This document shows, one piece after another, positions 6,952 through 33,478 of a stretch of DNA of 64,000 nucleotides. Each line of letters starts with the position of its first letter. Position 1 is the first letter of the stretch. Below the pieces are notes generated by a model, which saw nothing but the letters and a program-made list of their open reading frames with translations, did no database searches and was not told where the DNA came from. Both the position numbers and the translations under genes were made by a program. Source of the DNA: an uncultured Clostridia bacterium (lineage in GTDB: Bacteria > Bacillota > Clostridia > Oscillospirales > Acutalibacteraceae); contig CAMJMQ010000016.1 in assembly GCA_946407065.1 (NCBI GenBank), forward strand, positions 1-64,000, in the 5' to 3' direction.

Positions 6952-7188
6952 CGGGTTTTATGCCGTATTTTGTCCCTTTTTAGGGCATTGCCGTCAAAAA
7001 GCATAAAAAAATCAAAATATTTTAGCTATTCTATCAATGTCTGTCAGCGAAGATTTATGATAAAATAATATAAATATCAATTCGTTGGAAGCATCTGTCC
7101 TGTTTAATCCGCGACCAGTTCCCTTTCTTGTGCGGAACATTATTCGATGATTTCAAATGCCACCGTAAGAAAATCCGTAGGTGATCAT

Positions 7189-8280: not shown

Positions 8281-8299
8281 AATACAGCGAATATAATAA

Positions 8300-8336
8300 A
8301 GCACATTCGGCATTTTCAGTCGAATGTGCTTTTTTC
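8300..8336 (+). terminator. intrinsic terminator
   Basis: AGCACATTCG-GCATTTTCAGT-CGAATGTGCT-TTTTTC. Confidence 0.85.
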
Positions 8337-8358
8337 ATTGTGATATTCAATTTTTCAC

Positions 8359-9468: not shown

Positions 9469-9696
9469 TCAATCACCTCTGATTAGAAATGCAATGGGTA
9501 AATCAACCTCATCGGTAAATTGATATTATGTACGAGGATTTTGAAGAAGATCCGGCAGGAATCTGCCGCCGGCAACCAATTGGATGTCAGCACTCTTCAT
9601 CCTGTTATATAATAAAGCATTTTAACTGTGTTTGAGCAAAAAATCAATGGTAATAGTGCCCAAAAATCAAAGGGAATCGGATAAAACAGGCTGAAA

Positions 9697-11820
9697 TCAG
9701 GGCTCCGGATTGAGTTTTGCGACGCGGCGAACCTCATCCTCGGCGTCAAGAAACGCCTGCGCGACGAGCGGATCAAAATGTGATCCCGCGTCCTCGCGGA
9801 TGATGGAGAGCGCCTTTTCGATGGAAAAAGGCTCCTTGTAGCTGCGGCGGGAGACCAGCGCGTCAAACACATCCGCTACCGCCATCACGCGCGCTGAAAG
9901 CGGGATCTCCTCACCCTTGAGACCGGTGGGATAGCCCTTGCCGTTCCACTTCTCATGATGGTAGAGGGCGAGGTTCTTGGCCTCGGTCAGGTAGCCTGTG
10001 TCCTCATCCACAAGCGCCATCGCCTTGTCGATGATCTTGCCGCCCTCGACGGTATGGTTCTGCATGATGCGGAACTCCTCGTCGGTGAGTCTGCCGGGTT
10101 TGTTGAGGATCACATCGGAGACGGTGATCTTGCCCACGTCGTGGAGCGGTGCGGAGTTGACGACCTCCGCGATGTATTCTTCGGTCAGCTGATCGCTGTA
10201 GATGCCTTCCCTGAGCATCTGACAGAGTATGATTTCAGTATATGCGGCAGTTTTGAAAACATGATCTCCCGTGCACTGGTCACGGCTCTCGACCATATCG
10301 GCGAGCACCATGATCAGCCCGTTTTGCAGCTTGGTGAGCTGTTCGCTCTTGCGCTGGATCTCTTCGATGTAGAGAACGGTATGATGCGCCGCCCTTTTAT
10401 AATCTTCATAGAGCGTTTCGATCTCGTCGCCGGTGCGGATATCCAGCGCGTCAAGCATGCTGATCCACTTCTCTCTCGCCTCGGGGGTATCATAGCTCGA
10501 GTGACGCGAGACATGGGCGATGGAGTTGATCGGCTTGACGATATGGCGCTCCGCCAGCCACACCGCGTAGGTGCGGATCAAAATCAAAAAGCCGAGGAAT
10601 AGCGAGATGATCTTGGCGAGAAATTCGATCTCGTCGGAGCGCAGACGGCTCATCTCCATATCGATGCCGATATAGCACTTCACCTGCCCCGCGCTGTTTT
10701 TGACGGGCTCATAGACCGACAGCAGCCAGCCGTCCTCGTCATTCGTGATATCGGTGGGGATCTCCTCACCCGCTAAGAATCGCTCCTTGTATTTTTCGAT
10801 CGATTTGTCATAGCGGATGACCTCGCCGGGATCGTCGCTCTCTACGGTCGCGGTGTCTACATCAAAGATGACATGGGTGCCGTCCTCCATGATGCTGTAG
10901 ATATAGGCGAACTTGATATCGGGTGACGCCTTGACGATCGTCGTGAGGAGCTCCTCGATATCATCGTAACCCTCGGCGGCTCTGCCCTTCTCCATATACG
11001 CGTCGATCCGGTCGGCATTCAGCTTCTCCGCAATGACATGGATAGCATGGTGACCGTCCTCCTCAAACTCGGCGATCGTCGAATTATGGTACTGCAAAAT
11101 GCTGATACCGATCGCCGCCGATGCGACCAGGGTGGTAGAGATCGCGACCACCAACGTGGTTTTCCAGCGCAGGGAAAGCCGCTTGCGGTTGTGCTTGTTG
11201 GACTGCTCAAAGATGGTGAGATAGTACCAGTCACGTGTGTGGATAAAGTCCAGCAGCGGGGAAGGCAGCAGCTTATAGATGACCAGCGCGATCACGGTCA
11301 CTATCGTCTTATCGACAAGGTCGATCAAAAAGACGGACAACAGATTGGACAGAAAATAGCCCATCGGCACCACGCTGTTGATGCGCGCCGCCATGTCGAC
11401 GGCATAGCCCTCGCCGAAGTTCAGCCCGTTGATGAACCAGGTCAGCAATCCGCCCACGACGCCGCCCAAAAAGGCAAAGGTCACGATCCCGAGCAGGATA
11501 TACGGGATCTTCAGGCGGCGCATTTTCTCGGCAAAGGATACCGCCGCTACCGCGACCAGCACGCTGATGATACAGTAATAGATCGTGTAGGAATCGAAAA
11601 AACCATCGATGATATTGGTAAAGAAGCCAACCGTGATACACGGGATGTAGCCGCCCAGCATCGCCGAGAGGATGGTTCCGATATTATCGATAAACAGCGG
11701 CAGTCCCAGCGCGCCGTTGAGCTTGGTGCCGAGGATATTCAGCAGGATGCAGACGACGATGATGCCGATCAGCGACGCTATACTTTTCCATGATGATTTT
11801 GATCTTTGGTTCGATATCAT
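9697..11820 (-). CDS. HD-GYP c-di-GMP phosphodiesterase with ECF-S-like membrane N-terminus and extracellular sensor
   Basis: HDVGK and HHEKWNGKGYPTGLKGEEIP motifs; N-terminal multi-TM LPLFIDNIGTILSAMLGGYIP. Confidence 0.9.
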   Translation of the reverse strand: MISNQRSKSSWKSIASLIGIIVVCILLNILGTKLNGALGLPLFIDNIGTILSAMLGGYIPCITVGFFTNIIDGFFDSYTIYYCIISVLVAVAAVSFAEKMRRLKIPYILLGIVTFAFLGGVVGGLLTWFINGLNFGEGYAVDMAARINSVVPMGYFLSNLLSVFLIDLVDKTIVTVIALVIYKLLPSPLLDFIHTRDWYYLTIFEQSNKHNRKRLSLRWKTTLVVAISTTLVASAAIGISILQYHNSTIAEFEEDGHHAIHVIAEKLNADRIDAYMEKGRAAEGYDDIEELLTTIVKASPDIKFAYIYSIMEDGTHVIFDVDTATVESDDPGEVIRYDKSIEKYKERFLAGEEIPTDITNDEDGWLLSVYEPVKNSAGQVKCYIGIDMEMSRLRSDEIEFLAKIISLFLGFLILIRTYAVWLAERHIVKPINSIAHVSRHSSYDTPEAREKWISMLDALDIRTGDEIETLYEDYKRAAHHTVLYIEEIQRKSEQLTKLQNGLIMVLADMVESRDQCTGDHVFKTAAYTEIILCQMLREGIYSDQLTEEYIAEVVNSAPLHDVGKITVSDVILNKPGRLTDEEFRIMQNHTVEGGKIIDKAMALVDEDTGYLTEAKNLALYHHEKWNGKGYPTGLKGEEIPLSARVMAVADVFDALVSRRSYKEPFSIEKALSIIREDAGSHFDPLVAQAFLDAEDEVRRVAKLNPEP

Positions 11821-11833
11821 GATGCTCCTCCGA

Positions 11834-12178
11834 TCAGTCGGCGCACAGCGCGGCGAGCGACTCTCTCTTTGTCAAAAGCGCCTCAAGCAGCGGGGTGTAA
11901 TCCATCTCGGTACGCGCGCGCAGCAGCTCCGTCATCTCACAGCACACCTTGTACATCGGCGTGAGCGACAGATTACCCAGCACGCCCTTGAGCGCGTGAG
12001 CCGCCTCAAACGCGCCGTCGAGATCGCCCGACTGCAGGGCGCCTTGCAGCTTATCGAAACTCGCCTCTGCGGGGATCATCCCCACCAGGCGCAGATACAG
12101 CGCCTCGTTGCCGTAGCAGCGGCCGAGGCCTTCCTGTGTATCGGCGCCGAAATCGTTCAGCTTTTCGATGGTCAACAT
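11834..12178 (-). CDS. HPt (histidine phosphotransfer) domain protein
   Basis: AAHALKGVLGNL motif. Confidence 0.85.
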   Translation of the reverse strand: MLTIEKLNDFGADTQEGLGRCYGNEALYLRLVGMIPAEASFDKLQGALQSGDLDGAFEAAHALKGVLGNLSLTPMYKVCCEMTELLRARTEMDYTPLLEALLTKRESLAALCAD

Positions 12179-13878
12179 GATGCTTCTCCCCTTTTTTGAC
12201 ATTCCTGTTCGATCAATGCGCCGAAGCGTTCAGCGGGCAGCGGCGGCGAAAAATAATAGCCCTGTACGATATCACAGCCCATTTGCCTGAGCACGTTGAG
12301 CTGTTCTTCTTCCTCTACACCCTCCGCCACGACGGGGACGTCGAGGAATCCCGCGATATCCATCACCAGTCGGACGAGCTTGAGGTTTTTGTCATCCAAC
12401 AGCATGCGTCGGATAAACTGCATATCGATCTTCAAGACGTCGATCGGGATCTCGGTCAGCATATTCAGCGAAGAATAGCCCGAGCCGAAGTCGTCCATCT
12501 CGATCTTGAAGCCTGTATCTCTTAAGCTGTTGACCACCTCGATCAGCCGATCCGCGCTGTCGGCATAGGCGGACTCGGTGATCTCGAGCATCAGATCGTC
12601 GGGAGTGAGGGAGAACTCGTCGAGGATGTCGCAGAGCTTTTTCTCCAGCTCGGGATCGAAGATGTCGACGCGTGACACGTTCACCGAGACCGGAATAGTC
12701 ATCGCGTATTGCTCGCGCCAGCGCTTGATCTGCTCCGCGGCGCTGCGCCAGACATAGTGATCCACCCGACGGATCAGCCCGTTTTGCTCAAAGAGCGGGA
12801 TGAACTCGCCCGGGCTGATGAAACCCAGCTCGGGATGGATCCAGCGGATCAGCGCCTCTGCGCTGGCGAGTACGGGACGCTCACCCTGTATTCTGTATTT
12901 CGGCTGAAAATAAACGACAAAGTTACGGTCATGGATCGCGTCGTCGATGTCGCCGATCAGCCGTTCATGAAAGACCGTGCGTTCATACAGCTCGTTGTTG
13001 TAGCGAGTCGCCAACGAGCCGTACTGACCGCGGATACGGTCGCATGCCGACTTGGCGCGGCTGAACCACGCTTCGGGTTCACTCTCGTGATCTTCACAGG
13101 AATAGATACCCGCTCTCAGGCGCAGACTGCGCGATTTGGCAAACGCCGCGAGCTTACTCTGCATCTCTTCCATCAGCGATTCATACTCCTGTTGCCGTTC
13201 GCAAAAGAGGAAGAAGGTGTCGCTCTCACTGCGGCAGGCAATGCCGCGCAATTCAGAAAGTTTTTCAGAGATCAACTCACCGATGGTGGCGAGCACACGG
13301 TCGCCCTCGTCGCGCCCGAACAGCTCGTTGATCAGATGGAAGCGGTCAAGGTTGAGCACCAGCGCGTCCATCGGCTTTTCGAGCCGGGGGATCATCCGCT
13401 GCAGGTAGGCGAAAAAGTAACCGCGCGTATACAGTCCCGAGACCTTGTCGCGCTCGGTGGAACGGATGATGCTCTTGTCCTCGCTCAGCTCAATGATCCT
13501 CTCGCACCGCGCGAGAATGACCTCGGGCATGTCATAGGGCTTGGTGATGAAATCCGCCGCGCCCATGCGGATACTGCGCACCTCGGCGGATTTTTCGGAC
13601 GTCATGACGATGATGGGGATCCGCTTGAGCACCTCATCCCTTTGACAGCGCTCAATCACCTCAAAGCCGTCCATCACGGGCATCATCAGATCGAGCAGGA
13701 TCAGCGAGTAATTCGCGTCGGGCTGTGTCAGCGTCATCATGGCCTCCTGACCGTTTGACGCTGTTTCGATCTCAAAGGTCTGTGACAGCATGGCGCCGAG
13801 CAGCTCCCGGTTGATCAATTCATCATCAACTATCAGCACGCGGCGTTTGATGCCGCTTGCCGTCATATAATTCTTCAT
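12172..13878 (-). CDS. response regulator: REC - degenerate GGDEF - EAL
   Basis: LLDLMMPVMDG (REC); SESDTF in place of GGDEF; SAEALIRW, EITES, MDDFGSGYSS, AEGVE (EAL). Confidence 0.92.
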   Translation of the reverse strand: MKNYMTASGIKRRVLIVDDELINRELLGAMLSQTFEIETASNGQEAMMTLTQPDANYSLILLDLMMPVMDGFEVIERCQRDEVLKRIPIIVMTSEKSAEVRSIRMGAADFITKPYDMPEVILARCERIIELSEDKSIIRSTERDKVSGLYTRGYFFAYLQRMIPRLEKPMDALVLNLDRFHLINELFGRDEGDRVLATIGELISEKLSELRGIACRSESDTFFLFCERQQEYESLMEEMQSKLAAFAKSRSLRLRAGIYSCEDHESEPEAWFSRAKSACDRIRGQYGSLATRYNNELYERTVFHERLIGDIDDAIHDRNFVVYFQPKYRIQGERPVLASAEALIRWIHPELGFISPGEFIPLFEQNGLIRRVDHYVWRSAAEQIKRWREQYAMTIPVSVNVSRVDIFDPELEKKLCDILDEFSLTPDDLMLEITESAYADSADRLIEVVNSLRDTGFKIEMDDFGSGYSSLNMLTEIPIDVLKIDMQFIRRMLLDDKNLKLVRLVMDIAGFLDVPVVAEGVEEEEQLNVLRQMGCDIVQGYYFSPPLPAERFGALIEQECQKRGEASC

Positions 13879-13891
13879 AGCTATCTCCGTA

Positions 13892-16822
13892 TCATTTTGC
13901 CCTGATACATTCGGCGAGCGTTTTGAGCAGCTCGTCGGGGTTGAAGGGCTTTGCAACATGGGCGTTCATCCCTGCCTCAAAAGCCTCTTGTCTGTCGGTT
14001 TCAAAGGTGTTTGCCGTAATGGCAATGATGGGGATGCTGGCGTTCTCTCCCGCTGACGCGCGGATCCTGCGCGTCGCGTCATAGCCGTTCATCACAGGCA
14101 TCTGGATATCCATCAGGATCGCGCTGTAATAGCCCTTTTCGGACTGTTCGACCATCTCGGCGGCGATCTGACCGTTTTCGGCGACGTCCACGGTGAAGCC
14201 CTCCTGTGTGAGGATCATCGAGGCGATCTCGATGTTGATCGGGTTATCATCCGCCAGCAGGATCCGCACGCCGCTGAAATCGATTTTCTCGTTCTCACTC
14301 TGATCGGATGCGGTGTGTACCTCATCCTCTTTCGCGAGCGGAAAGCTCAGACGTACCGTAAAGGTGGAGCCCTTGCCCTGCTCGGTTTCGATCAGGATCG
14401 TGCCGTTCATCATCTCGACGAACTTTTTGGTGATCGCCATGCCCAGGCCCGTTCCCTGGATCGCGTCGACGGTACGGCTGCGCTCGCGCTCGAACGAGTC
14501 AAAGATACGCTCGGCAAATTCCTTGCTCATACCGATACCCGTATCGCTGACGCTGATTTCGTAGGTCTTTTCCTGTCCGGCTGTTTTTAGCTCTGTCAGC
14601 TTGGCGCTGACGCTGCCGCCGGAGGGCGTATACTTGTACGCGTTGGAGATCAGGTTGAGCAGGATGCGGTTGAGGCGGTTTTTATCACAGATGACATAGC
14701 GATCCTTGACGCCGCTGTGATCCACCGTATAGGTCAGCGGCTTTGCCTGCATTTGCAGGTCAAAAATATGACAGGTCTCGTCAAAGATCTCGATCAGGTC
14801 GGCGGGAGCGGGGTCGAGCTCCATCTTGCCGGATTCGATGTGACTCATATCGAGGATATCGTTGATCAGCGAGAGCAGTTGTTTTCCCGAGGTATCGATC
14901 TTCTCAAGATAGGCGCGGGTCGAGTCAGGCACGCCATCCTCCTTGAGCGCCAGCGCCGTGTAGCCGGTGATCGCGTTCATCGGCGTGCGGATATCATGGC
15001 TCATGTTGGAGAGGAAGGTGCTTTTGGCGCGGCTGTTTTCCTCCGCAAGCAGCCGTTCGGCTTCGATCAACTGCTCCCGCTTTTTGATGATGGAAAAGAT
15101 GCTGAATATCAAGAGTAAGGAGCCAAGCAGCAGCCCGCCGAGGATCAGGACGTTTTTTCTGACGGTCTCGGCGAACTCATTGAAGCGGTCACCCAGAAAA
15201 CGATTCGTCCGTGTGACGCTGTCATGATGGGCTTCCAGTCCCGCCTGTCCGGCTAGGTCGGTGTGTACCTCCTGCACCTCTTGTGTGACTTCCTTTGCGT
15301 GGTCAACGGTAGTTCGGTTCACCCATGATACGGATACCAAGAGGATCAGACAGAACAGGATGATCCATACGACGGTGCTCTTACCGATCAGTCGGGTTTT
15401 GTCACGCTGCATCAACGCGCGGAACACGATCATACCGATCAGGCTCCACAGGATCAGGATCATATAGGATTCCGCCGCCAGCTCGCTTTGCGAGCGGATA
15501 TGAGGCAGCAGATAGGAGACCGCAAAGATCATGGTGATCAAGGTGCCGATCACGCCGATCAGCAGCGCGGAGAACTTCTTCTCTCGTTTGCCGACGACAA
15601 CGGCACAGATGGATACATAGATATAGACGATCGTCGCGCCGATGGTGGTGACGTCGACGATCCAGCCGATCGCCGTTCTGCCGAAGAACGGGATGATCAT
15701 GGAGATGATCGCGACACACCAAAGCGCGCGTGAGGGGATCCCCTTTTTGTTGAGCTGTCCGACTTTTTTGGGGAGCATATTGTCGGCGGACATGCGAAAG
15801 ATCAGTCGGCTCAGCGCGATCATGTTGCCGATCAAGCCGGTGAAAATGCCGCAGAATGACGCGACGCCTAAGATGATCAGACCGGTCGTTCCCATCGTGC
15901 TCTGCGCGGCGTAAAAGGTCGGCAGACCGCGGATGCCGTCGATGTCGGATAATACGCGGATGTAATCGCTCCAGCTACGGAAGCCGTCGGGCACCGCCAC
16001 AGCGGCGCACAGCGTGAGCATCGTATACGCGAGCGCTCCTGTAGCGAGCGCCGCGATCAGGATCAAAAGGATCTTTTTCGGCTTGAAGTGAAATTCCTCC
16101 GCCGAATGGGAGACCGACTCAAAGCCGATGAACGCCCACGGCGCAAGGATCACGATCGTCAGGATCTGAGAGAAAGGATCGCCCTGTGAGGAGAAGGCGG
16201 GTGTGATTCCGCCGAGCCCGCCGCGACGGATCACGATGGTGACAAAGCATACGGCGATCCCCGCGAACAGCAGAACCGCGCCAATCGTCTGGACCCACGC
16301 CGCAAGGCGTTTGCCCGCAACGCAAACCAGACACGCGGCGGCGAGGATCGCGACGGACAGGAGCACCTCGCCCATATAGACGGTGTAGCCCGCGATCTGA
16401 TAGGAAAAGCCGAAGCAGAAGATGTCGCCGAACAGAAAACGCACGATCAGGGACAGCGCCGTGCTGTTTGCCCAGATGATCGCCGCGTAGGTCAACAGCA
16501 GCATCCACGCGCACAAAAAGCCGTGGTCGCTTCCGAGCACCTTGGCGGCAAAGATATAGGAGCCGCCCGCGTCGGGGTAACGCTCCATCAAAAAGCGGTA
16601 GCTCAGTCCGATGATCAGCATGATGACCGCGCCGATCAGCAGTCCGATCACCGAGCCCCACGGTCCCGCAATGGGCAAAAAGGTAGTGCCGGGCATGACA
16701 AAAGCGCCCCAGCCGACGGCACTGCCGAAGGCGAGTGCCCATACCGCGACCGGGGAGAGGTATTTGGTCAGCCCGTTGTTATTTTGATTGGTGCTTTGAA
16801 TACGAATCATAGTATGCTCCAT
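13892..16822 (-). CDS. APC-type amino acid permease fused to hybrid histidine kinase (HisKA-HATPase-REC)
   Basis: ~12-TM permease N-terminus (SAVGWGAFVMPG, YPDAGGSY, FIGFESVSHSAEEF), NMSHDIRTPMNAITG H-box, HATPase GTGLGMAITKK, REC MDIQMPVMNGYDA; start at 16822 has GGAGG RBS. Confidence 0.9.
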   Translation of the reverse strand: MEHTMIRIQSTNQNNNGLTKYLSPVAVWALAFGSAVGWGAFVMPGTTFLPIAGPWGSVIGLLIGAVIMLIIGLSYRFLMERYPDAGGSYIFAAKVLGSDHGFLCAWMLLLTYAAIIWANSTALSLIVRFLFGDIFCFGFSYQIAGYTVYMGEVLLSVAILAAACLVCVAGKRLAAWVQTIGAVLLFAGIAVCFVTIVIRRGGLGGITPAFSSQGDPFSQILTIVILAPWAFIGFESVSHSAEEFHFKPKKILLILIAALATGALAYTMLTLCAAVAVPDGFRSWSDYIRVLSDIDGIRGLPTFYAAQSTMGTTGLIILGVASFCGIFTGLIGNMIALSRLIFRMSADNMLPKKVGQLNKKGIPSRALWCVAIISMIIPFFGRTAIGWIVDVTTIGATIVYIYVSICAVVVGKREKKFSALLIGVIGTLITMIFAVSYLLPHIRSQSELAAESYMILILWSLIGMIVFRALMQRDKTRLIGKSTVVWIILFCLILLVSVSWVNRTTVDHAKEVTQEVQEVHTDLAGQAGLEAHHDSVTRTNRFLGDRFNEFAETVRKNVLILGGLLLGSLLLIFSIFSIIKKREQLIEAERLLAEENSRAKSTFLSNMSHDIRTPMNAITGYTALALKEDGVPDSTRAYLEKIDTSGKQLLSLINDILDMSHIESGKMELDPAPADLIEIFDETCHIFDLQMQAKPLTYTVDHSGVKDRYVICDKNRLNRILLNLISNAYKYTPSGGSVSAKLTELKTAGQEKTYEISVSDTGIGMSKEFAERIFDSFERERSRTVDAIQGTGLGMAITKKFVEMMNGTILIETEQGKGSTFTVRLSFPLAKEDEVHTASDQSENEKIDFSGVRILLADDNPINIEIASMILTQEGFTVDVAENGQIAAEMVEQSEKGYYSAILMDIQMPVMNGYDATRRIRASAGENASIPIIAITANTFETDRQEAFEAGMNAHVAKPFNPDELLKTLAECIRAK

Positions 16823-17209
16823 ATCCTCCATGACGGCGGATGGCAAACCACCATCTTTGTTATGGGTGCGAGGTCGCCGTGGATTATTTGTTCGCGGCTT
16901 TTATGTTAACTGATTTATTATAAACTATTGCCGTTAAAAATACAATAAAATTCCGAAAAATAGGCGTTTTATACAATGAACGATATGAGAGCTTTGACCC
17001 CCTGTTACGGCAGAGCCGCGCGCTATCGTGATCAGGCGATGATCCTGAGCGGAAAGGTCAGATTTCTTCTTGTGTAGATTTCATAAAATCTACCACATAA
17101 ATATAGAACAAATCCCGATTTTGCCGCGCCCATATTGAAAACTGTCGCAAAAAATATTATGATTATTTTGATACCCCAGCGAATATGATTCAAAGGAAAG
17201 GGAACGGTC

Positions 17210-19750
17210 ATGAACACAGGTTTTTTCGATCTGCTGAAAACAGTCAGACAGCCCGAAGCCATCGTTCAGTTTCTTGACAATTCATCCTATGATGAGCTGC
17301 TCGAAATCGATCTGAATCAGCAGACTTTCAAAAGCTTATTCCATATTGCCAAAAAGTACGCCATGCCGCTGTCACAGGGCACCTACCGGGAGGTGTTCAT
17401 CGGCATGTCCGAGGAACTCATCCACCCCGGTGAACGCGACAGATTTGTTGAGCTGATGCATCCGGAAACGGTGATGTACCGGCTGTCCGAATCCGAGATC
17501 CCCGGACTGTATTGCGAAGAATACCGTTTTCGGCTGATCGTCGGCAATTGGCACTGGGTAGAGCTGGTGCTGATCGCGGGAGAGGATTACGGGCTGACGC
17601 CCAATGTCATCCGTATGTATGTCTTTGACTGCCAGAGTCGCAAGATCCGCGAACTGGGGTTGACCGACACCGCGGTGTATGCCGACAACAACCGAAGCGA
17701 AATGACCGGATTGCTGAAAAAGCGCCCCTTCATCAAAGAGGTGAAACAGCGCATCAAGGATGAAGGGAAAGAATGGTGTCTGGTCAGTATCGATATCGAT
17801 AATTTCAAGCTCTTCAACGAATGGTACGGCCACAGCGAGGGCGATCTCTTGATGGTACAAATCGGTGCGACGCTGCTCGAAGCCGGTGATCGTACCGGCG
17901 GTACGGCGGGTTACTTCGGACAGGATGATTTCTGTCTGCTGATCCCCTACGACATGGAGCTGATCGGTCACATCTATGAGGATATCGCCTCTTTGATCGG
18001 CTCTCGCGGCAGCAGCTCGAGCTTTTTGCCCGCGTTCGGCGTTTGTATCGTCAAGAAAGAGTATGAGCTGATGGATATGCTCGACCGTGCGCTGTTGGCG
18101 GCACAGGTCGCGAAGGAAGGCTACCACAGCCGCATCCGTATATTTGAAAAGGGAATGTATTCGCGCACCAATGAAGAATATCGCGTGCTCACCGATTTTT
18201 CACGGGCGCTCAAGCAGCATGAGATCGTCTTTTATTTGCAGCCGCAATGCCGCGCGTCATCGGGCAAGATCGTCGGTGCCGAGGCGCTGGCGCGTTGGGT
18301 CAAGCCCGACGGTACGGTCGTGCCGCCCGACGCGTTCATCCCCGTACTCGAAAAGCGCGGGCTGATCTCCGACTTGGATCTGTATATCTGGGACAATGTT
18401 TGCCGCTGGATGCACGACTGGATCGAGAGCGGACACACACCGCTGCCCGTATCGGTGAACGTGTCGGTCTCCGATATCCTGCACACCGACCTTCCCGCTA
18501 TCTTTGAAAACCTGATCAACAAATACTCTCTGGAACGCAGTCTTCTCAAGATCGAGATCACCGAATCCTCCTACATCACCAACACGGCGCTCGTCATGGA
18601 TACCGTTCGATCGTTAAGGGAAAAGGGCTTTACGGTGCTGATGGACGATTTCGGCAGCGGCAGCTCCACCTTGAATATGCTCAAAAATCTGAATATCGAC
18701 GTCATCAAGCTCGACGCGCAGTTTTTGAACATGGATGAAAGCAACGAGGAAAAGAGCATTCGCATCCTGGAATCCGTCACCAATATGACCAAGACGATCG
18801 GTGTGCCGATCATCGTGGAGGGCGTCGAGACCAAGGAACAGAGGGATTTTCTGGTCGACATGGGATGCCGCTATATCCAGGGCTACTACTTCTTCCGCCC
18901 CATGCCGTCAGAGGACTTTGAAAATCTGATCGATAATCCTGAGAAGATCGATACCTCGGGGATCGTCTTCAAGGCGAACCAGCAGTTCCGCCTGCGCGAG
19001 CTGCTCGACAGCAACATCTACAGCGATACCATGCTCAACAACATCCTCGGCCCGTGCGCGCTGTACTCGTGGCACGGCGATGATGTGGATATCGTGCGCT
19101 ATAACGAACAGTTCTATGAGGCGGTCGACGTTCCCGATTTTAAGGATCGTCTGACCTGTATCCAGCGCTTTTTGCCCAAGGCGGACATTCCGCGGATCAC
19201 CGAGCTGCTGCGTCTGGCGCAGCGCGACCGACTCAACGGCTCCAAGGGACTGCTGCATTTCTATAAAACCGACGGCACACTGACTACCTTTGATATGCAT
19301 TTTTATTATCTGCACAGCGAGGGAGAGGAAAAGATCTTCTACGGCTCCGTGCGGAATATCACCAAGCTGAGCAATCTGGAAAAGCAGATGTCGTGGTTGT
19401 CGCATATCTCGAGGGACACGGTTCTTTTTCTGTCCCAAACCTCCGATGATGATCTCCGTTTCACCGTGCTGTTCAACGGTCTGGAGAATATCATCGGCAT
19501 CAGTGCCCATGAACTGGAGGTCGAGCTGAACCGCGAGGACTTCTTCAACAGGATCGGCTCCGAAAACAGGCTCTCCTCTTATCGCGACATCCTGAAAAAG
19601 ATCAAAAGCTCCGAACCGTTCTCGGAGAAGCTGAGCATAAAAAACGCGAACGGAGAATCGGTAGAGCTGAATGCGATCGGTAACTATATGCCCGACGAGA
19701 CGAACACGATGAATTATATCATCATCCTGAGCAGCATATCGAAAGAATAA
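17210..19750 (+). CDS. degenerate GGDEF - EAL - PAS-like signalling protein
   Basis: GQDDF replaces GGDEF; GAEALARW, EITESS, MDDFGSGSSTL, VEGVETKEQ. Confidence 0.88.
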   Translation: MNTGFFDLLKTVRQPEAIVQFLDNSSYDELLEIDLNQQTFKSLFHIAKKYAMPLSQGTYREVFIGMSEELIHPGERDRFVELMHPETVMYRLSESEIPGLYCEEYRFRLIVGNWHWVELVLIAGEDYGLTPNVIRMYVFDCQSRKIRELGLTDTAVYADNNRSEMTGLLKKRPFIKEVKQRIKDEGKEWCLVSIDIDNFKLFNEWYGHSEGDLLMVQIGATLLEAGDRTGGTAGYFGQDDFCLLIPYDMELIGHIYEDIASLIGSRGSSSSFLPAFGVCIVKKEYELMDMLDRALLAAQVAKEGYHSRIRIFEKGMYSRTNEEYRVLTDFSRALKQHEIVFYLQPQCRASSGKIVGAEALARWVKPDGTVVPPDAFIPVLEKRGLISDLDLYIWDNVCRWMHDWIESGHTPLPVSVNVSVSDILHTDLPAIFENLINKYSLERSLLKIEITESSYITNTALVMDTVRSLREKGFTVLMDDFGSGSSTLNMLKNLNIDVIKLDAQFLNMDESNEEKSIRILESVTNMTKTIGVPIIVEGVETKEQRDFLVDMGCRYIQGYYFFRPMPSEDFENLIDNPEKIDTSGIVFKANQQFRLRELLDSNIYSDTMLNNILGPCALYSWHGDDVDIVRYNEQFYEAVDVPDFKDRLTCIQRFLPKADIPRITELLRLAQRDRLNGSKGLLHFYKTDGTLTTFDMHFYYLHSEGEEKIFYGSVRNITKLSNLEKQMSWLSHISRDTVLFLSQTSDDDLRFTVLFNGLENIIGISAHELEVELNREDFFNRIGSENRLSSYRDILKKIKSSEPFSEKLSIKNANGESVELNAIGNYMPDETNTMNYIIILSSISKE

Positions 19751-19793: not shown

Positions 19794-20012
19794 AACCCCC
19801 TGTTCCGAGGAACAGGGGGTTCGCTTATGTTGGTTTATCAGTTGAATTTTCGGTTCTTTCATTCTGTTTAATGGATACTTAGTATAAAGTTTAGCAGGCG
19901 CAATACAACAACATTACAACAAAAACAACACAAATTTTGATTATTTTAAAATTTTTTCAAAAAACTTTTAAAAGGCATAAAAAAGCAGACGTTCCGTGGG
20001 GAACGTCTGCTT
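19794..20012. terminator. two convergent hairpins between opposing genes
   Basis: ACCCCCTGTTCCGAGGAACAGGGGGT (about 19795-19822) and AGCAGACGTTCCGTGGGGAACGTCTGCT (about 19984-20011). Confidence 0.8.
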
Positions 20013-20030: not shown

Positions 20031-24387
<4,357 letters not shown>

Positions 24388-24391
<4 letters not shown>

Positions 24392-25800
24392 TGTTCAAAC
24401 TCCTTCCGCTGGATCTTGCCCCATGTTTTACGAAGTTTACGGTATTTGATGATACCCTCCACACGGAAGATGGTGATGATCTGTCGGTAGCCGAAGTTCT
24501 CGAGGATCGCGTAGACGGAGATCGCGATGCTCTGCTTGGCGGTCATCGCGGCACGGTGGGTGTACTGTTCCAGCACGAGGCTGCCCTCCGATAGGATAAC
24601 GCCCAAGGATACCGACAGCAGGAAATAAATGACAAAGAAGAACATGTTCAGCTCGCCCATGATCAGCGTGAACGGTATCAGAAAATAACCGATCGTTTCG
24701 ACCACAGCGCCGAACAGCTCGAAGATCCAGTTGTAGGGCATCGATACCATTCCGACAAAGCCGTAGCGCGGGTTGAAGGTCATGCCGGCATGCGAGATCA
24801 GCGTATCCATCAAGCCGATCTGCCAGCGGCGGCGCTGGCTGCGGATGTCGTTGAGCGACATCGGGCCCTGCGTCCAGCAAACCGAGAATTCGTTGAAGGT
24901 GACTTTATATTTTCTGCGGTGCTTGCGCATATAGTGGTGGATGCGGACGACGATCTCCATATCCTCGCCGATGGTGTTCTTCTTGTAGCCGCCCACCTCG
25001 ATAACGGTCTGCTTGCGGAACAGTCCGAAAGCGCCCGAGACGATGAGCAGGGAGTTGGACGCCGCCCAAAAGACACGCCCCATCAAAAAGGAGCGGTAGT
25101 ACTCGACGATCTGGAAACGCTCAATGAGCTTTTTGGGCATGGTAAAGCCCTTGAGCTCGCCGTCGACGATCTTGGAGCCGTTCGCGATACGCACGATACC
25201 GCCCGCGACGACGGTGCGGGAATCCTTAATGAACTCCAACGACAGGCGCAGCAGCGCGTCCTTTTCGATACGGGAGTCGGCGTCCAGACAGGTGAACAGC
25301 GGATATTTGGAGATATTGATGCCCGCGTTCAGCGCGTCGGACTTACCGCCGTTTGCCTTTTGGACATACAGCAGGTTGGGGTAGGTCTTACTGTAATAGA
25401 CCGCCTCGATCTTCTGGGTCGGGATCTGGTAGCGGATCGAGGTCTCGATCTTGTGCATATGAAAGGCGTTGATCACCCTGTCGCCTGTCTTATCCGTTGA
25501 GCCGTCGTTGACGACGATGATCTCAAAATGCGGATAGTTGAGCTTCATAAGCGAGCGGACATTCTGCACGATATGCTCCTGCTCGTTATATGCGGGGATG
25601 ATCAGCGAGATGGGCAGGAGGTTTTCACTGTCCTCATAGCTGAGATAATCATCGGAAAAGGTCCTGTTATAGTTGTGGTGTACGCGGAAAAAGGACACAA
25701 AGAGCTGGATGATATATATTATGTTGAGCAACAGCGTAAAAGCCATGCAGAAGTAATTGAAATACACGATAAAGTAGCGTATCGCATTCAAAAATCCCAC
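24388..25800 (-). CDS. processive membrane glycosyltransferase family 2 (BcsA/IcaA-like polysaccharide synthase)
   Basis: VVNDGSTD, LDADSRIEKD, GED, QRRRWQIG motifs; TM helices at both ends. Confidence 0.92.
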
Positions 25801-25886: not shown

Positions 25887-26957
25887 TCAGGTGTCGACCG
25901 TTTTATACAGCACGTTCTTCATCGCGTCGGCGGCAAAACGGTCGTATCCGCCTAAGATCTCTTCCAGATCCCTGGGCGAGATATCCATACGGGTGAGCGA
26001 CTGCGCCGCTGTCTGGCGCACCCACCATTCCTTGTCGCCCAGCGCGTGCTTGACGGTGTTGAGCGCGGTCTGCGTCTTTAAGAGCGACAGCCCTCTGACC
26101 GCCGAGGAACGGATCACCCAGTCCTTATCGCCCGCGGCGATCTGCAGGATCTGTTCATCCTCGGGGTAGCCGAAAGCGGCGAGCGCCTTGACGCACGCGA
26201 TCTTGAGCTGGTTATCGTCGCCCGACGCGCCCTCGATGTACATGTTTCTGAAGCCGTCGATCTTGTACTGCGCGATCGTCTTGATGACGGTGCACTTCAT
26301 GTACTTGTTGCATTTTTCAAAGAGCATTGCGGCGAGCTCCTCCCGGTCGCCGGTGAACTGGTCAAAAAATTCGTTGACGATCCTGCCGGAATACTGCGTA
26401 TCGTTCTCAATGCGCAGCAGGTACGCGGCGACCTCATAGACGTCGCCCATCTCACACAGCGCCATCGCGGCGTTATATGCCAGATCTCTGTCCTTGCTGT
26501 CGACACATTCCTTGATCTTGTCGCGGTACTCCAGCGCCTCCAGATCGGCGAGCCTTCTGCAGGCATAGCCCTTGTGGTAGACGTCGCCCTCGTCAAGCAT
26601 CTTGGCGTACATCGCAACAGGATCGACCTGCGTATTGATGCGCTCGATCAGCTTCTCTTTGGCTTCATCATCAAAGCCGGAGCCCTGATGCTCTTTGATT
26701 TCTTTTACAGCCATCTCATAAACGGCGTATTCTCCGTTTATCTCGTCTGCCAATGCCGTTATCTCGGCGTCACGACTGCCCTGTGTGGGTGCATAGAGCA
26801 CCCCTTCCACATGGATATCAAGCCTGCGCCTGATGTTATCGTTGCGGGCTGTATGCTCATCCTGCAATTCAGCCAGCCGATAAAGAAGAATGTACTCTAT
26901 GCCTATGATCAACAGGCACAGCAGTAACCCGATAACGCTTATCAGTTCGATCTTCAA
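25887..26957 (-). CDS. membrane-anchored HEAT-repeat protein
   Basis: Repeated helical units (DKDWVIRSSAVRGLSLLKT, DKEWWVRQTAAQSLTRM); N-terminal TM; TTG start at 26957 with AGGAG RBS inferred. Confidence 0.82.
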   Translation of the reverse strand: MKIELISVIGLLLCLLIIGIEYILLYRLAELQDEHTARNDNIRRRLDIHVEGVLYAPTQGSRDAEITALADEINGEYAVYEMAVKEIKEHQGSGFDDEAKEKLIERINTQVDPVAMYAKMLDEGDVYHKGYACRRLADLEALEYRDKIKECVDSKDRDLAYNAAMALCEMGDVYEVAAYLLRIENDTQYSGRIVNEFFDQFTGDREELAAMLFEKCNKYMKCTVIKTIAQYKIDGFRNMYIEGASGDDNQLKIACVKALAAFGYPEDEQILQIAAGDKDWVIRSSAVRGLSLLKTQTALNTVKHALGDKEWWVRQTAAQSLTRMDISPRDLEEILGGYDRFAADAMKNVLYKTVDT

Positions 26958-27029
26958 GCGGTTATCTCCTGTTTGTCGGCCTCCCTGAGGAGGTGGGGCT
27001 TTTCTCAAGCCCCCTTTTTATTGATAATA

Positions 27030-27101: not shown

Positions 27102-30100
27102 TTATTGCCCCGAAAAATATTGTTTGAGTGTATCAAAGCTCTCCTTGCGGCGGGAGGCGTACTTGACGGTCTCCCATTTATCCCACTGAAAGACTTTGTA
27201 TCCGGGGTCGTGTTTATCGACGGGGAAGGCATACATCAAGTCGCCCTCCTCACGCTCGCCGACCATGACGGATACCAGCACGCCGTTGGTGGTGACGGTC
27301 TTGGCGGTCTTCTCCTTGAAGGAGGTGTCATTGATCACGAGCTTTTTGGACGGATCGGCGACGTTGAGCCATGTCCACGGCAAGCGGATATAGATCGTCG
27401 AGCCGGTCTGGTAGAACTGGGTATCGCCCGAGGTAAAGCCGCCGTAGCTCAGATCTGCCACCTTGTTGTAGTCGCCGGTATAGCTTTCTTTGGTATATGC
27501 CGAGCCCTTGCTGCGGTCATAGGTCTCGATGACGTACAGCGCGGCGTTCTGCTTGCCCTCAAAGCGGAGGGAGTATTCCATACCGGAGAGGGAATTCGCC
27601 GTGAAGTCGTCGGCATAGTAATATTCACCGTCGTTGCGCTGGAAGGTATCCAGACCGATGAACATCGCGTTATCCTTATAATCGATCTCCTGTAGCAGCT
27701 GCAGGGTGATATACAGATAGCCCGCGTCGCTGTACATGGAGACCGCCTGCGCCAGGTCGTCGTCGGAGAGGACCAGACCCGGTGTCTCGGGCATCACGCT
27801 GTCCATCGCGATCAGACCGGTCATCTGCTCGGGGTCACAGGTGTTGTGCCACAGATGGCTGTCGGAGGCGGAGGAGCTGAAGAACGCCATGTCCTCGCCG
27901 ACCTCGCTCCAACTGTCGTTGAGGTCATACACGGTCGCGCCCAGGATGTCGCTGTCCTTCGCTGCCTTGAGTGCTGAGATGATCCGCTCACCCTGCTGTG
28001 CCTCGGTGACCGCGTCCTGATCGTAAACCGCGTTGACGTCAGAGAACGATACACCCGAAGCGAGCACAGGCGACGTGATCTTTTTGAGCTCGTTGAAAAC
28101 GCTCAGATACTTTGTCTCTACGGTGTCGGATTTTTTGCCGCCGCCAATGATCTTCGCGTTATCGAGAGCGATATCACAGAAGTAATATTCCTGACAATCG
28201 TCAGTGACGATGTCGTTGAACACATACGCGTTTTTATCCTTGACGCCCGTCATACCCTTGATCATCTCATAGGAGCCGCAGACGGAAACAGGCGTATGGT
28301 AATCGTAATCATCGCAGGAAACCGTCTGGGCGGTATCGTACAGATATGCCGCAAAGCCCTCGACGCCCTTGCTTTCCTTGACATACTTGCCGCTGTAGGA
28401 ATAGGAGGAAAGCCCGGTCATCGCCGCGACGTTCTGAGAGGTCAGCGCGGGATCGATGCTCACGCCCAGCACATACTCCGATACATCGATGAAGTAGGTC
28501 GCCGCGCCGAGCTTTTCACTCTGCGCGTGGCCGTTGCCGTGGAGCGCTTTGATCGTAGTCGTGATCGACTCCTTCCATTGATCGAGGCCGTCGGACTTGA
28601 GATAATCCGCAGCACTGAGCTCATCGGGCACACCGGTGCGCTGCAGGATATAGATCGCCCCATTCTCGGGATTCTTGTTATAGCGGCTGACTGCCGCGTA
28701 GAACTCGGGCGGTAACAGATCCTTTGCCACAAGACAGTTGACGCCCATCTCGCCGGCGGATTTGATCAGATCCTCATAGAAGGTGAAATCGCGCGAGTAG
28801 GTCGCCTTGCCGGGCTCCTGCGCGTTCAGGGCGGCGGCTTTGAGCGTCATGCCGCGCCACTTTTCATCCTCGAGCACCTGGAAGCTGCCGTTGTTGACGC
28901 GCGCGACCTCCGCGTGCGCCTCCTTCTCCTCTACATACTTATTGCTCTTGGTATCGGACAGGATATGGCGGATCAGCGGATTGTAGAACCGCCAGTAAAA
29001 GTTGGAAATATCGCCCTGTCGGTCGTAGGACAGGAATTTGAAAAACTGGTTGGAGAATAGAAAATCGCCGTAGCGGTCGCCGTTAACATAGTCGTTGCAG
29101 TCGCCCGCAAAGTAGTAGACGGGCGCATAGCCCTCTTCCTGATGGCGTGAGATCGCGCAGAAGCGCGGTGTTTTGCTGATCTCGCTGATCTTTTCCATAC
29201 CGGTGGCGTTGAGGTCAAAATCAAAGGTCGCCAGCGTTTCAACGCCGTAGTTCGGCTCGACAAGCTCGAACCAATTATAGAAGTTGCATTTATCGCAGCC
29301 GGAGAATTCCTTGCGGTATTCCTCGTTGATATAGATCCGCAGCAGATTTTTGGATAAGAAATCCGTATTCTGCTCCAAGATGATAATCTTGCCGTCGGAC
29401 GATACCAGCAGGATACCGGGGCCGGTAAAGCGCCATTCAACGCCCTCCTGCTGCTCATACATCGGCGGCGCCCAGTCGGGAACGTCGGTAAAGTCCTCCA
29501 GATCGACGATATACCTGCCGATCCACTTGGTCGGATTGACGCCGGTGAGCGCGATCAACTGAGCGCGTACCGAGTCGGACAGCGGCGAGCTGAAGAAGGT
29601 GCTCTCCGCAATGATCGGAGCGCCGCTCTCATGCGCGAAGGAGATATACGACATATCGTCGTCGGAGATACCGCCGTTCAGCGGTGAGCCGCCGTTATAG
29701 TGACCGAAGGTATCGTTGCCCAGACCGTAGGCGTCGGAGAGATAGAGCAGGTCGGGCGTGGCATTCGCGTCCTTGAGCTCGACGTCATGGTCAAAGTTAC
29801 CCTCTTCATCGAGCATCGGGCCGAAATAATCCTTTTTATAGTCATAATACTTTCCGTCGGGCTTGACATACCGCTGCTGATGCATGATCCAGTAAAAGCC
29901 CTGGTGCTTACGGTACACGGTATGCTTGATGATGTTCTCATCATCCGCGTAGGCGAGCACGGTTTTGTCCAGTACCGCGACATTCATCGCTTTCTTCGGG
30001 ATCAGATGCCATATGCCGAACAGCAGGATGAGGAACAAAACGATGACGGCAGCCACGATGTGGTACCATTTGAATCTCTTGATATAGAACTTGACCTTTG

Positions 30101-30191
30101 ACTTGCGCGCGGTCTGCTGCTCTTCAAAAGCCTTTTCCTCTGGTGTGGTCGGGACATAGTCGGTCTGCTTATTCTTATTTTCTTTTGACAT
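27102..30191 (-). CDS. large membrane-anchored pseudo-glycosidase paralogue with extra N-terminal domain and DOMON-like C-terminus
   Basis: 1031 aa ORF; N-terminal TM; middle region parallels the two GH-like ORFs, but the glutamate positions read GVSIDPAL and LASGVSFSDV. Confidence 0.75.
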   Translation of the reverse strand: MSKENKNKQTDYVPTTPEEKAFEEQQTARKSKVKFYIKRFKWYHIVAAVIVLFLILLFGIWHLIPKKAMNVAVLDKTVLAYADDENIIKHTVYRKHQGFYWIMHQQRYVKPDGKYYDYKKDYFGPMLDEEGNFDHDVELKDANATPDLLYLSDAYGLGNDTFGHYNGGSPLNGGISDDDMSYISFAHESGAPIIAESTFFSSPLSDSVRAQLIALTGVNPTKWIGRYIVDLEDFTDVPDWAPPMYEQQEGVEWRFTGPGILLVSSDGKIIILEQNTDFLSKNLLRIYINEEYRKEFSGCDKCNFYNWFELVEPNYGVETLATFDFDLNATGMEKISEISKTPRFCAISRHQEEGYAPVYYFAGDCNDYVNGDRYGDFLFSNQFFKFLSYDRQGDISNFYWRFYNPLIRHILSDTKSNKYVEEKEAHAEVARVNNGSFQVLEDEKWRGMTLKAAALNAQEPGKATYSRDFTFYEDLIKSAGEMGVNCLVAKDLLPPEFYAAVSRYNKNPENGAIYILQRTGVPDELSAADYLKSDGLDQWKESITTTIKALHGNGHAQSEKLGAATYFIDVSEYVLGVSIDPALTSQNVAAMTGLSSYSYSGKYVKESKGVEGFAAYLYDTAQTVSCDDYDYHTPVSVCGSYEMIKGMTGVKDKNAYVFNDIVTDDCQEYYFCDIALDNAKIIGGGKKSDTVETKYLSVFNELKKITSPVLASGVSFSDVNAVYDQDAVTEAQQGERIISALKAAKDSDILGATVYDLNDSWSEVGEDMAFFSSSASDSHLWHNTCDPEQMTGLIAMDSVMPETPGLVLSDDDLAQAVSMYSDAGYLYITLQLLQEIDYKDNAMFIGLDTFQRNDGEYYYADDFTANSLSGMEYSLRFEGKQNAALYVIETYDRSKGSAYTKESYTGDYNKVADLSYGGFTSGDTQFYQTGSTIYIRLPWTWLNVADPSKKLVINDTSFKEKTAKTVTTNGVLVSVMVGEREEGDLMYAFPVDKHDPGYKVFQWDKWETVKYASRRKESFDTLKQYFSGQ

Positions 30192-30213
30192 GAACACACC
30201 GCCTTACTGTCGG

Positions 30214-32421
30214 TTATTGTGCGGTTACAGCTTTGGTACCGTTTTCTTCTTCGCCGATGAACGCAAGGAACTGCTCACAGATAGCGGGGTCAAAGATCTT
30301 GCCCTCGTTATCCTTGAGGTAACGCATCGCGTCCTCCTTGCTCCACGGCTTTTTATAGGTTCGCTCGGAGATCAGCGCGTCATATACGTCGCATACTGTG
30401 ACGACGCGCGCCTCGACGGGGATCTCCTCACCCTTTAATCCGTTGTTGCCGGTACCGTCGTAACGCTCGTGATGATAGCGTGCGATCACGGCGGCTGTGG
30501 CGAGCATGGGATCATCGTCATATGCCGAGAGGATGGTATAGCCGAATTCGGTATGGCTGTTGATGATCACGCGTTCTTCTTCACTGAGCCTGCCCTCTTT
30601 ATGGATGATGTCCTTGGGTACGGCGATCTTGCCCAGGTCGTGCAGCTCCGAGGCGATGGAGATACGCTCGGCTCTCTCCTCTTCGATGCCGATCCTCAGA
30701 CACAGCTCGCGGCTATTGTTCCTGATATTGATCAGGTGATCGACGCTGCAGCCGTTGTCAATCTCTGTATTTTCGGCAAGCTCGGCAAAGATCACGTTGA
30801 TATCGCGGTGGGTACCGTCGGTGAAGATATCTTCATAGGTGGTCACCAGTCCGCAGTAGGCGGCTTCGATCATGCTGATGAAGAAGACGTCCATACCGTC
30901 TTTGATGTTCTCAAAATGGAAGACAGCGCCGACTTGATCATTGTTTTTGAGGATGTATTCAAAATAAGTCCCCGCAAACAGACATTCCTTATCATTCTTG
31001 CGTCCGTTTTGCTCGATCAGGTCATAGCGGCAGCCTTCGATTCCGTTGTTGACCACTTCCGTGTAAGCATCTCCGTTTTTGACGGCGACGCAGTAGCGGA
31101 TATCGGTGTTGTCCGGATGATATTTGACGATCAAATCGAGGATCTCGCGGACAGCCGTATCATAAAACCTCGATTTGTCACGACAATCGAGCATATGGCG
31201 GATAAACTGCGAGATGCCCTCTACCGATTTGCTGTATTTGGTGCTCTGAAGGCGAACGTCGCTGTTCTGCTTTTCCTGACGGAAGTGGCGGATATAGATG
31301 TATTCGAGCACGCACATGATGACGATCGACGATATCGTGACATTATAGATGTACAGGATCCGCTGGCGGGTGATCATAAAGATCGCCGCGAGCACCATGA
31401 TCATCGTGCAAAATACACACATCACAAAGATGGGCGCCGCGTATTGGATCCGTCGGTCGAGCTGTACCATCGCCGTGTGCGAAACAAACACCGCGGCGGC
31501 GGTGGTGAGCAGGCACATCAGCAGGATGGCGATCTTGACCGTCAGCGGATTGAACGCCACCAGCAGCGCGATCGCCGATATCACGGAAGCGACCAGGATC
31601 GCGATCACGGTTTTACGCGATTCCTTGAACAGTCCGTTCAGGCACAGCAGTACCGCCATAAAGGTGAGGTGAACGGGCAGCGCGGTGATGCTCAGCCACT
31701 TCGGCGTATTGAACGTATAGGTGACTTCGGGCAGCATGTACAGCGCCAGAGCAAGCCCTACATAGCACAGCAGTCCCGAAACGATGACCGAACGGAACAG
31801 GCGTTTTTTGACAGCCGAGAGGATCCCGAAGACGATCGCCGCCAACAGACCGAGCCCCATCAGGATCAGCCCGATGGTAAAGCCGGGCATGTAGGTAAAG
31901 GTCGGATCGCCGGGGGGATTCAGATAGGTCTCAAACCGTACCGAGAAGGGCAGCTTGAGCATGACCTCCAGCTGTCGCTCCTGTGTGGACGGCTCCAGTG
32001 TGACGGCGTTGTAGCAGTTGCCAACATACTCCGCCGTGTCGAATTGGTTATTGTAGATCTCTTTGCCGTTGAGTCGGATCTTGACCGGCGCGAAATCGGT
32101 GATGAGCACAAAGTTGCTCGCCTTATCCGATGGTTCCAGCGTTTTAGTGAAGTAAATATTGCTTTTGTTGCCATCCGATACGATCGGGTTCTGCGCGTTA
32201 TAGATGCGCAGCTCGCCGTCGGGCACGGAGCCCGCCTTTTCGGTATACAGGTAGTTCCAGTTGGAAAAGCGGTTCTCGTCCGTATAGCTGTTGGCGACAT
32301 AGTGCGCGACAAAGTAGACCGCCACGGTCAGCAAAAGGATGATCAGCGATACGCCTAAAAGGGGGAGCACTCCCCCTTTAGTGACCTTGTCATTCAGTTT
32401 TTTTAAGCGGATCTTTTTCAT
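30214..32421 (-). CDS. membrane HD-GYP-family protein with variant GYP motif (GNN)
   Basis: ELHDLGKIAVP, YHHERYDGTGNNGLKGEEIPVEARVV; extracellular beta-rich domain followed by multi-TM. Confidence 0.88.
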   Translation of the reverse strand: MKKIRLKKLNDKVTKGGVLPLLGVSLIILLLTVAVYFVAHYVANSYTDENRFSNWNYLYTEKAGSVPDGELRIYNAQNPIVSDGNKSNIYFTKTLEPSDKASNFVLITDFAPVKIRLNGKEIYNNQFDTAEYVGNCYNAVTLEPSTQERQLEVMLKLPFSVRFETYLNPPGDPTFTYMPGFTIGLILMGLGLLAAIVFGILSAVKKRLFRSVIVSGLLCYVGLALALYMLPEVTYTFNTPKWLSITALPVHLTFMAVLLCLNGLFKESRKTVIAILVASVISAIALLVAFNPLTVKIAILLMCLLTTAAAVFVSHTAMVQLDRRIQYAAPIFVMCVFCTMIMVLAAIFMITRQRILYIYNVTISSIVIMCVLEYIYIRHFRQEKQNSDVRLQSTKYSKSVEGISQFIRHMLDCRDKSRFYDTAVREILDLIVKYHPDNTDIRYCVAVKNGDAYTEVVNNGIEGCRYDLIEQNGRKNDKECLFAGTYFEYILKNNDQVGAVFHFENIKDGMDVFFISMIEAAYCGLVTTYEDIFTDGTHRDINVIFAELAENTEIDNGCSVDHLINIRNNSRELCLRIGIEEERAERISIASELHDLGKIAVPKDIIHKEGRLSEEERVIINSHTEFGYTILSAYDDDPMLATAAVIARYHHERYDGTGNNGLKGEEIPVEARVVTVCDVYDALISERTYKKPWSKEDAMRYLKDNEGKIFDPAICEQFLAFIGEEENGTKAVTAQ

Positions 32422-32664: not shown

Positions 32665-33354
32665 TTACTCTGCTTTGAGTGAATAGATCACGGGTTTGCC
32701 GTCTTGGATCTTGACCGTGAGTGTCGCTCTGCCGAACAGGGTCTTGCGTTCCAGCTCGTTATAGAAGGTGGTGATGATCTCCGCCTGATCCGAGCTGACG
32801 TTGACCGCGTCGATATTATAATAGATGTTGGTACCGTAAGAGGGGATCCACATCTCAAAGATCTTTTTATCGGCGTTATACAGCATCGAGGAGGTGACGT
32901 TGAAGTCATCGGTGCCGAACTGCGTCTTGAGAACGTCGCGGATCTGCTGTTCCTCGGCGCTGCGGTACTGTACCGTTTTGTTATTGATGGTGTAGAAATC
33001 GTCGAAGAAAACATGGATAAAGGCGTACTGTACGGCAGCCTCGAGCGGGATGTCCTTCGGCTTATCGAACTTCTTTTGCGCCATCATGAACGCCAGCTCA
33101 TAGGAGCGCACCGCATAGTCCTTGACATTGACCGTAACGTCGCCGACCTTTACGGGGTCGGTTTTGCCCTTTCCGTAAGCATAAAAGCCCTCGCGCTCGG
33201 TCTCCTGATCTTCGCTGTCGATCTTGACTTTGTAGTCCGATGTCGCTTGATCCTCCTGCTTCACCTTGGGGTCTACGCCGCAGGCGGAAAAAGCCGATGC
33301 CGCAAAGACAACAGCGGTGAGAAATGCCAGTAATTTTATCATGTGATTCTTCAT
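32665..33354 (-). CDS. lipoprotein, function unknown
   Basis: Signal peptide with SAC lipobox (AASAFSACG). Confidence 0.8.
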   Translation of the reverse strand: MKNHMIKLLAFLTAVVFAASAFSACGVDPKVKQEDQATSDYKVKIDSEDQETEREGFYAYGKGKTDPVKVGDVTVNVKDYAVRSYELAFMMAQKKFDKPKDIPLEAAVQYAFIHVFFDDFYTINNKTVQYRSAEEQQIRDVLKTQFGTDDFNVTSSMLYNADKKIFEMWIPSYGTNIYYNIDAVNVSSDQAEIITTFYNELERKTLFGRATLTVKIQDGKPVIYSLKAE

Positions 33355-33478
33355 AAAAAATCGCCCCTTTATAAGAATATTCCCTGACTCGTGAAAAATC
33401 AAGTCAAGGAATAGTCTTTTGGATAGTTCACCAATAAATCAGCCGTCGAAATCATCGTGGCTGTCTATTTTACTATGC

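Follow-up and report, generated by a model that had tools for sequence, protein, structure and literature searches.

A long barrel protein lacking both catalytic glutamates in a putative c-di-GMP-linked exopolysaccharide operon of a rumen Ruminococcus-like bacterium

The window, a stretch of 64,000 nucleotides (assembly GCA_946407065.1, contig CAMJMQ010000016.1), belongs to a rumen Ruminococcus-like bacterium. On its minus strand lie genes for a multi-TM HD-domain protein of the HD-GYP type (30214-32421), a long protein of 1031 amino acids (27102-30197), a HEAT-repeat protein with one N-terminal TM helix according to domain search and hydropathy (25887-27008), a GT2 glycosyltransferase (24388-25800) and two shorter GH-A-like proteins. 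The first of these short paralogues, 747 amino acids long with an N-terminal anchor (22148-24391), has the glutamates E221 (codon 23729-23731) and E370 (codon 23282-23284); the second, 706 amino acids long with a lipoprotein-like Cys19 (20031-22151), has E206 (codon 21534-21536) and E352 (codon 21096-21098). The genes for the GT2 protein and short paralogue 1 overlap by 4 nt, as do those for short paralogues 1 and 2, and a strong terminator-like hairpin with a 13-bp stem and a T tail is found just past the last gene (19983-20012, minus strand). There is no transporter gene within the operon. A lipoprotein-like protein of 245 amino acids (32665-33402, minus strand), kept upstream in close relatives, is separated by a gap of 243 bp and its membership in the operon is uncertain.

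The order HD protein, long protein, HEAT, GT2, GH, GH is maintained across close relatives. The HEAT and GT2 genes accompany the barrel in most of the loci read, and in one of them (L045) HEAT is fused to GT2. In locus L014 the gene for short paralogue 1 (16163-18364) is hybrid-like with a C-terminal half matching paralogue 2, of which no separate copy was found at this locus; because GT2 is also split in the same MAG, the hybrid is possibly an assembly error.

The GT2 protein has the motifs DAD at 173 and QRRRW at 322, and its GT2 domains, QRRRW motif and TM segments predict a processive-type synthase. The nearest NCBIfam models, PgaC/IcaA and the XrtG-associated glycosyltransferase, both score below cut-off. 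In the HD-GYP-type protein the third motif reads HHERYDGTGNNGL, so that the GYP is not canonical, and the activity of the protein may be altered.

The open reading frame of the long protein begins with GTG at 30197. An in-frame ATG two codons further in, at 30191, would give 1029 amino acids and is the likelier start because AAGGCGG is located 7 nt upstream of it. The protein consists of a cytoplasmic tail, one TM helix, an N-terminal domain (N-domain), a pseudo-GH barrel and a C-terminal domain, all on the minus strand. The TM helix (residues 47-65, 30003-30059), placed by hydropathy on the translation, is preceded by six and followed by three K/R, which suggests that the N-terminus is inside and the ectodomain outside. 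The N-domain comprises residues 67-425 (28923-29999). The (beta/alpha)8 barrel, delimited by alignments and the model, comprises residues 430-762 (27912-28910) and the C-terminal part residues 763-1031 (27105-27911), which has its homologue at the C-terminal end of the short paralogues. Sequence searches of Pfam, NCBIfam and PDB with the whole long and short proteins, and with the N-terminal and C-terminal parts on their own, turned up nothing above cut-off.

The window's own barrel proteins have no match in Pfam, and some relatives give weak GH113 and GH72 matches. The AlphaFold model of the 747-amino-acid paralogue (mean pLDDT 70) places both glutamates: beta4 spans residues 213-221 and beta7 366-371, so that E221 ends beta4 and E370 lies within beta7. 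Foldseek matches of this model are mostly GH157 (7.6e-9), GH5, GH2 and GH50. Model and matches support the short paralogues as predicted barrels of the clan GH-A type, in agreement with the preliminary description, which had called them GH-like and referred to clan GH-A. Structure prediction was less informative for the long protein. Its low-confidence model (whole-model pLDDT 43, barrel blocks mostly 45-92) places beta4 at 576-581 and beta7 at 711-717 with an order of strands and helices that suits a (beta/alpha)8 barrel, and Foldseek with this same model gave GH157 as top match (1.1e-4) among many generic TIM barrels.

The preliminary description had proposed, from protein segments that are all present in the translations, that the long paralogue has lost both catalytic glutamates and is non-catalytic. 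Alignment of the beta4 and beta7 positions bears this out. At beta4 a conserved DP motif sets the register (LGVSIDPAL in the long protein, VGIEWDPNL in the short), which puts Ser580 (codon 28458-28460) in place of the acid/base Glu221, and at beta7 the strand aligns without gaps (VLASGVSFS and LVAEFGIPT), which puts Gly715 (codon 28053-28055) in place of the nucleophile Glu370. The beta4 register moved by up to 4 residues in one MAFFT alignment, and in no alignment register does the window's long protein have a Glu near beta4 or beta7. Both glutamates are absent from all 21 long-form proteins, which are 13 close orthologues including the one in the window and eight more distant proteins (L043, L044 and L133-L138), and both are retained in all of the aligned short paralogues from the same operons. 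The loss is therefore not due to chance. There are two blemishes: in L012 a Glu follows the beta4 site at a distance of 4 residues, and in L138 a Glu immediately precedes the beta7 site.

Altered catalytic residues are also found in some single-copy relatives: at beta4 Asn in L050 and L056 and Asp in L049, and at beta7 Gly in L149. No second barrel copy was found in the genomes of these four. Hydrolysis may thus not be essential to the barrel family.

The trees separate the long and short barrels deeply. A branch with 100/100 support has on one side the long barrels that are inactive, together with the GREL-type Glu-bearing barrels from fused proteins of other Bacillota; on its other side the two short paralogues form a sister pair. 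An origin of the long protein as a recent duplicate of the short paralogues is rejected by this topology. Given the long stem of the inactive-barrel clade (1.5 changes per column), its placement as sister to the fused Glu-bearing barrels could be a long-branch effect; the common fused architecture independently supports the placement. The loss of the glutamates in the long barrels appears, from these sequences, to be one evolutionary event, and its coincidence with two short paralogues consequently counts as a single observation.

The preliminary description had mentioned an extra N-terminal domain of about 400 amino acids that could not be assigned. It still has no match to a known fold, and it can now be placed as a widespread free-standing family tied to the GT2 synthase. 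The N-domain has no PDB sequence match and is poorly modelled, and a Pfam search with the free-standing proteins at an E-value limit of 1 gave one weak, unrelated match and nothing else. The family is present in 12 of 299 sampled Bacillota genomes (about 4%), the window's genome included. In L139, L142 and L143 the N-domain is a protein by itself with GH, HEAT and GT2 genes as neighbours, and it is also free-standing in L128, where the short contig stops behind the HEAT gene. In 13 proteins of other Bacillota it is fused to a barrel in which both glutamates are kept (13 of 13; L166 is split over two reading frames). A single chain of 1378 amino acids in L165 comprises HEAT, GT2, a TM helix and the N-domain in that order. 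In the genomes G833 and G953 the N-domain sits with HEAT and GT2 and no related barrel was found, G833 being 82% complete. The fetched stretches around the fused genes of L162, L164, L166 and L167 and around the free N-domain gene of L172 have no HEAT or GT2 gene.

In barrel-less loci the free N-domain is adjoined by multi-TM proteins of 567 amino acids (L168, 5771-7474) and 569 amino acids (L170, 8741-10450), for which the only match is a weak one to Y_phosphatase2, in one of them. Other loci have a protein of about 490 amino acids upstream of the barrel; its correspondence to the N-domain was considered and rejected, as it is CotH and gave hhalign probabilities below 1%.

Since the N-domain gene adjoins or is fused with GT2, a putative extracytoplasmic partner is encoded together with the synthase. 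The N-domain is on these grounds a candidate extracytoplasmic subunit of the GT2 synthase, and the long protein seems to be retained for its front half, as a conserved partner of a polymer-making enzyme.

The operon is tied to c-di-GMP by its neighbourhood only. Four of the five GGDEF genes of the genome that score above cut-off are located at 7786-18115 of the window, within about 13 kb of the operon. The surrounding cluster (7147-19750) comprises two GGDEF genes, an HD-domain gene, a REC-GGDEF-EAL gene and a GGDEF-EAL-PAS gene. Adjoining the REC-GGDEF-EAL gene is one for a protein of 984 amino acids (13892-16846, minus strand) that combines an amino-acid permease domain with HisKA, HATPase and receiver domains. 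A regular-expression count placed GGDEF/HD-GYP genes near 28 of 47 loci; as it overlooks known cases and was made without a background control, it is not used as evidence.

The explanation that we prefer, with a probability of about 0.7, is a c-di-GMP-linked, synthase-dependent exopolysaccharide operon in which the long protein serves the synthase through its N-domain and the dead barrel is structural. The GT2 protein and the membrane-bound HEAT protein would polymerise a glycan at the cytoplasmic face, presumably under c-di-GMP control. The long protein would be the membrane-anchored extracytoplasmic subunit of this synthase, forming a complex with it by way of the N-domain. Its barrel would descend from a Glu-bearing barrel that lost its active site and would persist between the N-domain and the C-terminal domain as their scaffold or spacer. 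The two short barrels that bear the glutamates, of which one is membrane-anchored and the other lipoprotein-like, would be the ones to carry out hydrolysis, as trimming or release of the polymer.

The pattern of constraint agrees with a structural barrel. Mean pairwise identity in the long protein is 80% for the N-domain, 77% for the C-terminal part and 62% for the barrel, which is its least conserved extracytoplasmic domain, whereas the barrel is the most conserved part in both short paralogues (87% and 82%). The dN/dS is 0.12-0.21 for the pseudo-barrel, 0.04-0.06 for the 747-amino-acid barrel, 0.09-0.13 for the 706-amino-acid barrel and 0.03-0.12 for the N-domain. The pseudo-barrel is thus relaxed compared with the 747-amino-acid barrel and only somewhat above the 706-amino-acid barrel, against which the contrast fails, and it is clearly not neutral. 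Purifying selection is ongoing.

Such selection would also be expected of a glycan receptor whose cleft, although without the glutamates, would still bind the polymer so as to tether it or guide it outward. The well conserved C-terminal part could bind glycan, and the single-copy relatives with one catalytic residue changed suit a binding role. However, active-type barrels have 49 conserved columns; in at least 80% of the inactive barrels, 15 of these are retained and 20 have disappeared. Most of the cleft residues are among those lost, which include Trp283, Tyr325, Pro326, Tyr328, Trp421, Glu424 and Trp430, while those retained (Phe132, Tyr133, Ala135, Asn140, Gly190, Tyr272, Glu394 and Gln397) look structural. 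Because of this loss and the low conservation of the barrel relative to the other extracytoplasmic domains, a receptor acting through the old cleft is unlikely. The preliminary description had left scaffold and glycan receptor side by side; the first is preferred here and the second weakened. The non-catalytic reading common to both is well supported by the sequences.

It is more doubtful still that the barrel has gained a new catalysis, as a transglycosylase or lyase, with other acidic residues such as those of the DLND motif at beta8. This motif (Asp758, Asp761) shows no variation among the 16 long proteins aligned and differs from its counterpart in the short proteins, mostly (T/S)WQDE, and in most fused Glu-bearing barrels, EW(M/T)DE. 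Asp761 nevertheless corresponds to Asp423, which is already conserved in active-type barrels, and the constraint on the barrel is relaxed rather than renewed. Rumen Ruminococcus relatives degrade plant glycans. The operon could in that light be a catabolic locus for glycan degradation with the GT2 and HEAT genes incidental, as the resemblance of the short barrels to GH5/GH157 folds and the four barrel genes fetched with no HEAT or GT2 neighbour (L162, L164, L166 and L167) would allow, but most of the loci read have HEAT and GT2 genes beside the barrel, these two occur in fusions with one another and with the N-domain, and a transporter gene is missing from the operon, so that this is the least probable reading of all.

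If the preferred reading of a synthase with a structural dead barrel is true, the N-domain, with its share of the sampled Bacillota genomes, becomes a candidate subunit for c-di-GMP-linked polysaccharide synthases and is the more interesting part of the locus. The free domain, its fusion to a Glu-bearing barrel and its fusion to a dead barrel would then form a natural series that shows a route from a polymer-processing hydrolase to a structural part. The chances are about even that the operon represents an undescribed class of Bacillota exopolysaccharide synthase, composed of HEAT, GT2 and the new N-domain. In this class a barrel of hydrolase origin, joined to the partner of the synthase, would have turned into a dead structural element when the operon had separate hydrolases. 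Searches of the open-access literature yielded no account of an operon that combines HEAT, GT2 and a barrel.

BcsB of the Gram-negative cellulose synthase is a single-pass extracytoplasmic partner of BcsA and is sometimes fused to the synthase. By analogy, the N-domain protein is likewise predicted to be single-pass and extracytoplasmic and is sometimes synthase-fused, although it has no sequence match to BcsB. The Bacillus subtilis operon ydaJKLMN is a putative c-di-GMP-controlled exopolysaccharide operon that encodes a GT2 synthase together with a BcsB-like partner. The window's operon resembles it as a putative c-di-GMP-linked Bacillota exopolysaccharide operon with GT2 and differs in that its N-domain has no Pfam match to BcsB; we know of no HEAT protein in ydaJKLMN. 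Unlike the Bcs/Ccs cellulose synthases, the synthase here has no PilZ domain on it or with it, PilZ giving no match anywhere in the genome. The Gram-positive Pel locus pelDEADAFG is linked to c-di-GMP and has CotH, a polyphosphate polymerase, DUF4956 and GGDEF/EAL as accessory genes (PMC7112168). The same accessory set, as CotH, VTC, DUF4956 and GGDEF/EAL genes, is found beside some relatives of the window's operon, whereas no Pel component is among the operon's own Pfam matches and the synthase is of the GT2 type. In the clostridial ccsZABHI operon, as far as the part of the source consulted describes it, a GT2 synthase with a PilZ domain (CcsA), a membrane-bound extracellular partner (CcsB), a GH5 hydrolase (CcsZ) and the acetylation proteins CcsH and CcsI are encoded together (PMC7710045). 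The window's operon differs from this description, in which no HEAT protein is mentioned, by its HEAT protein, its different extracytoplasmic domain and the lack of a PilZ match in the genome, and it shares with ccsZABHI the association of GT2, a putative membrane-bound extracellular partner and a GH-A-type hydrolase in one clostridial operon (PMC7710045).
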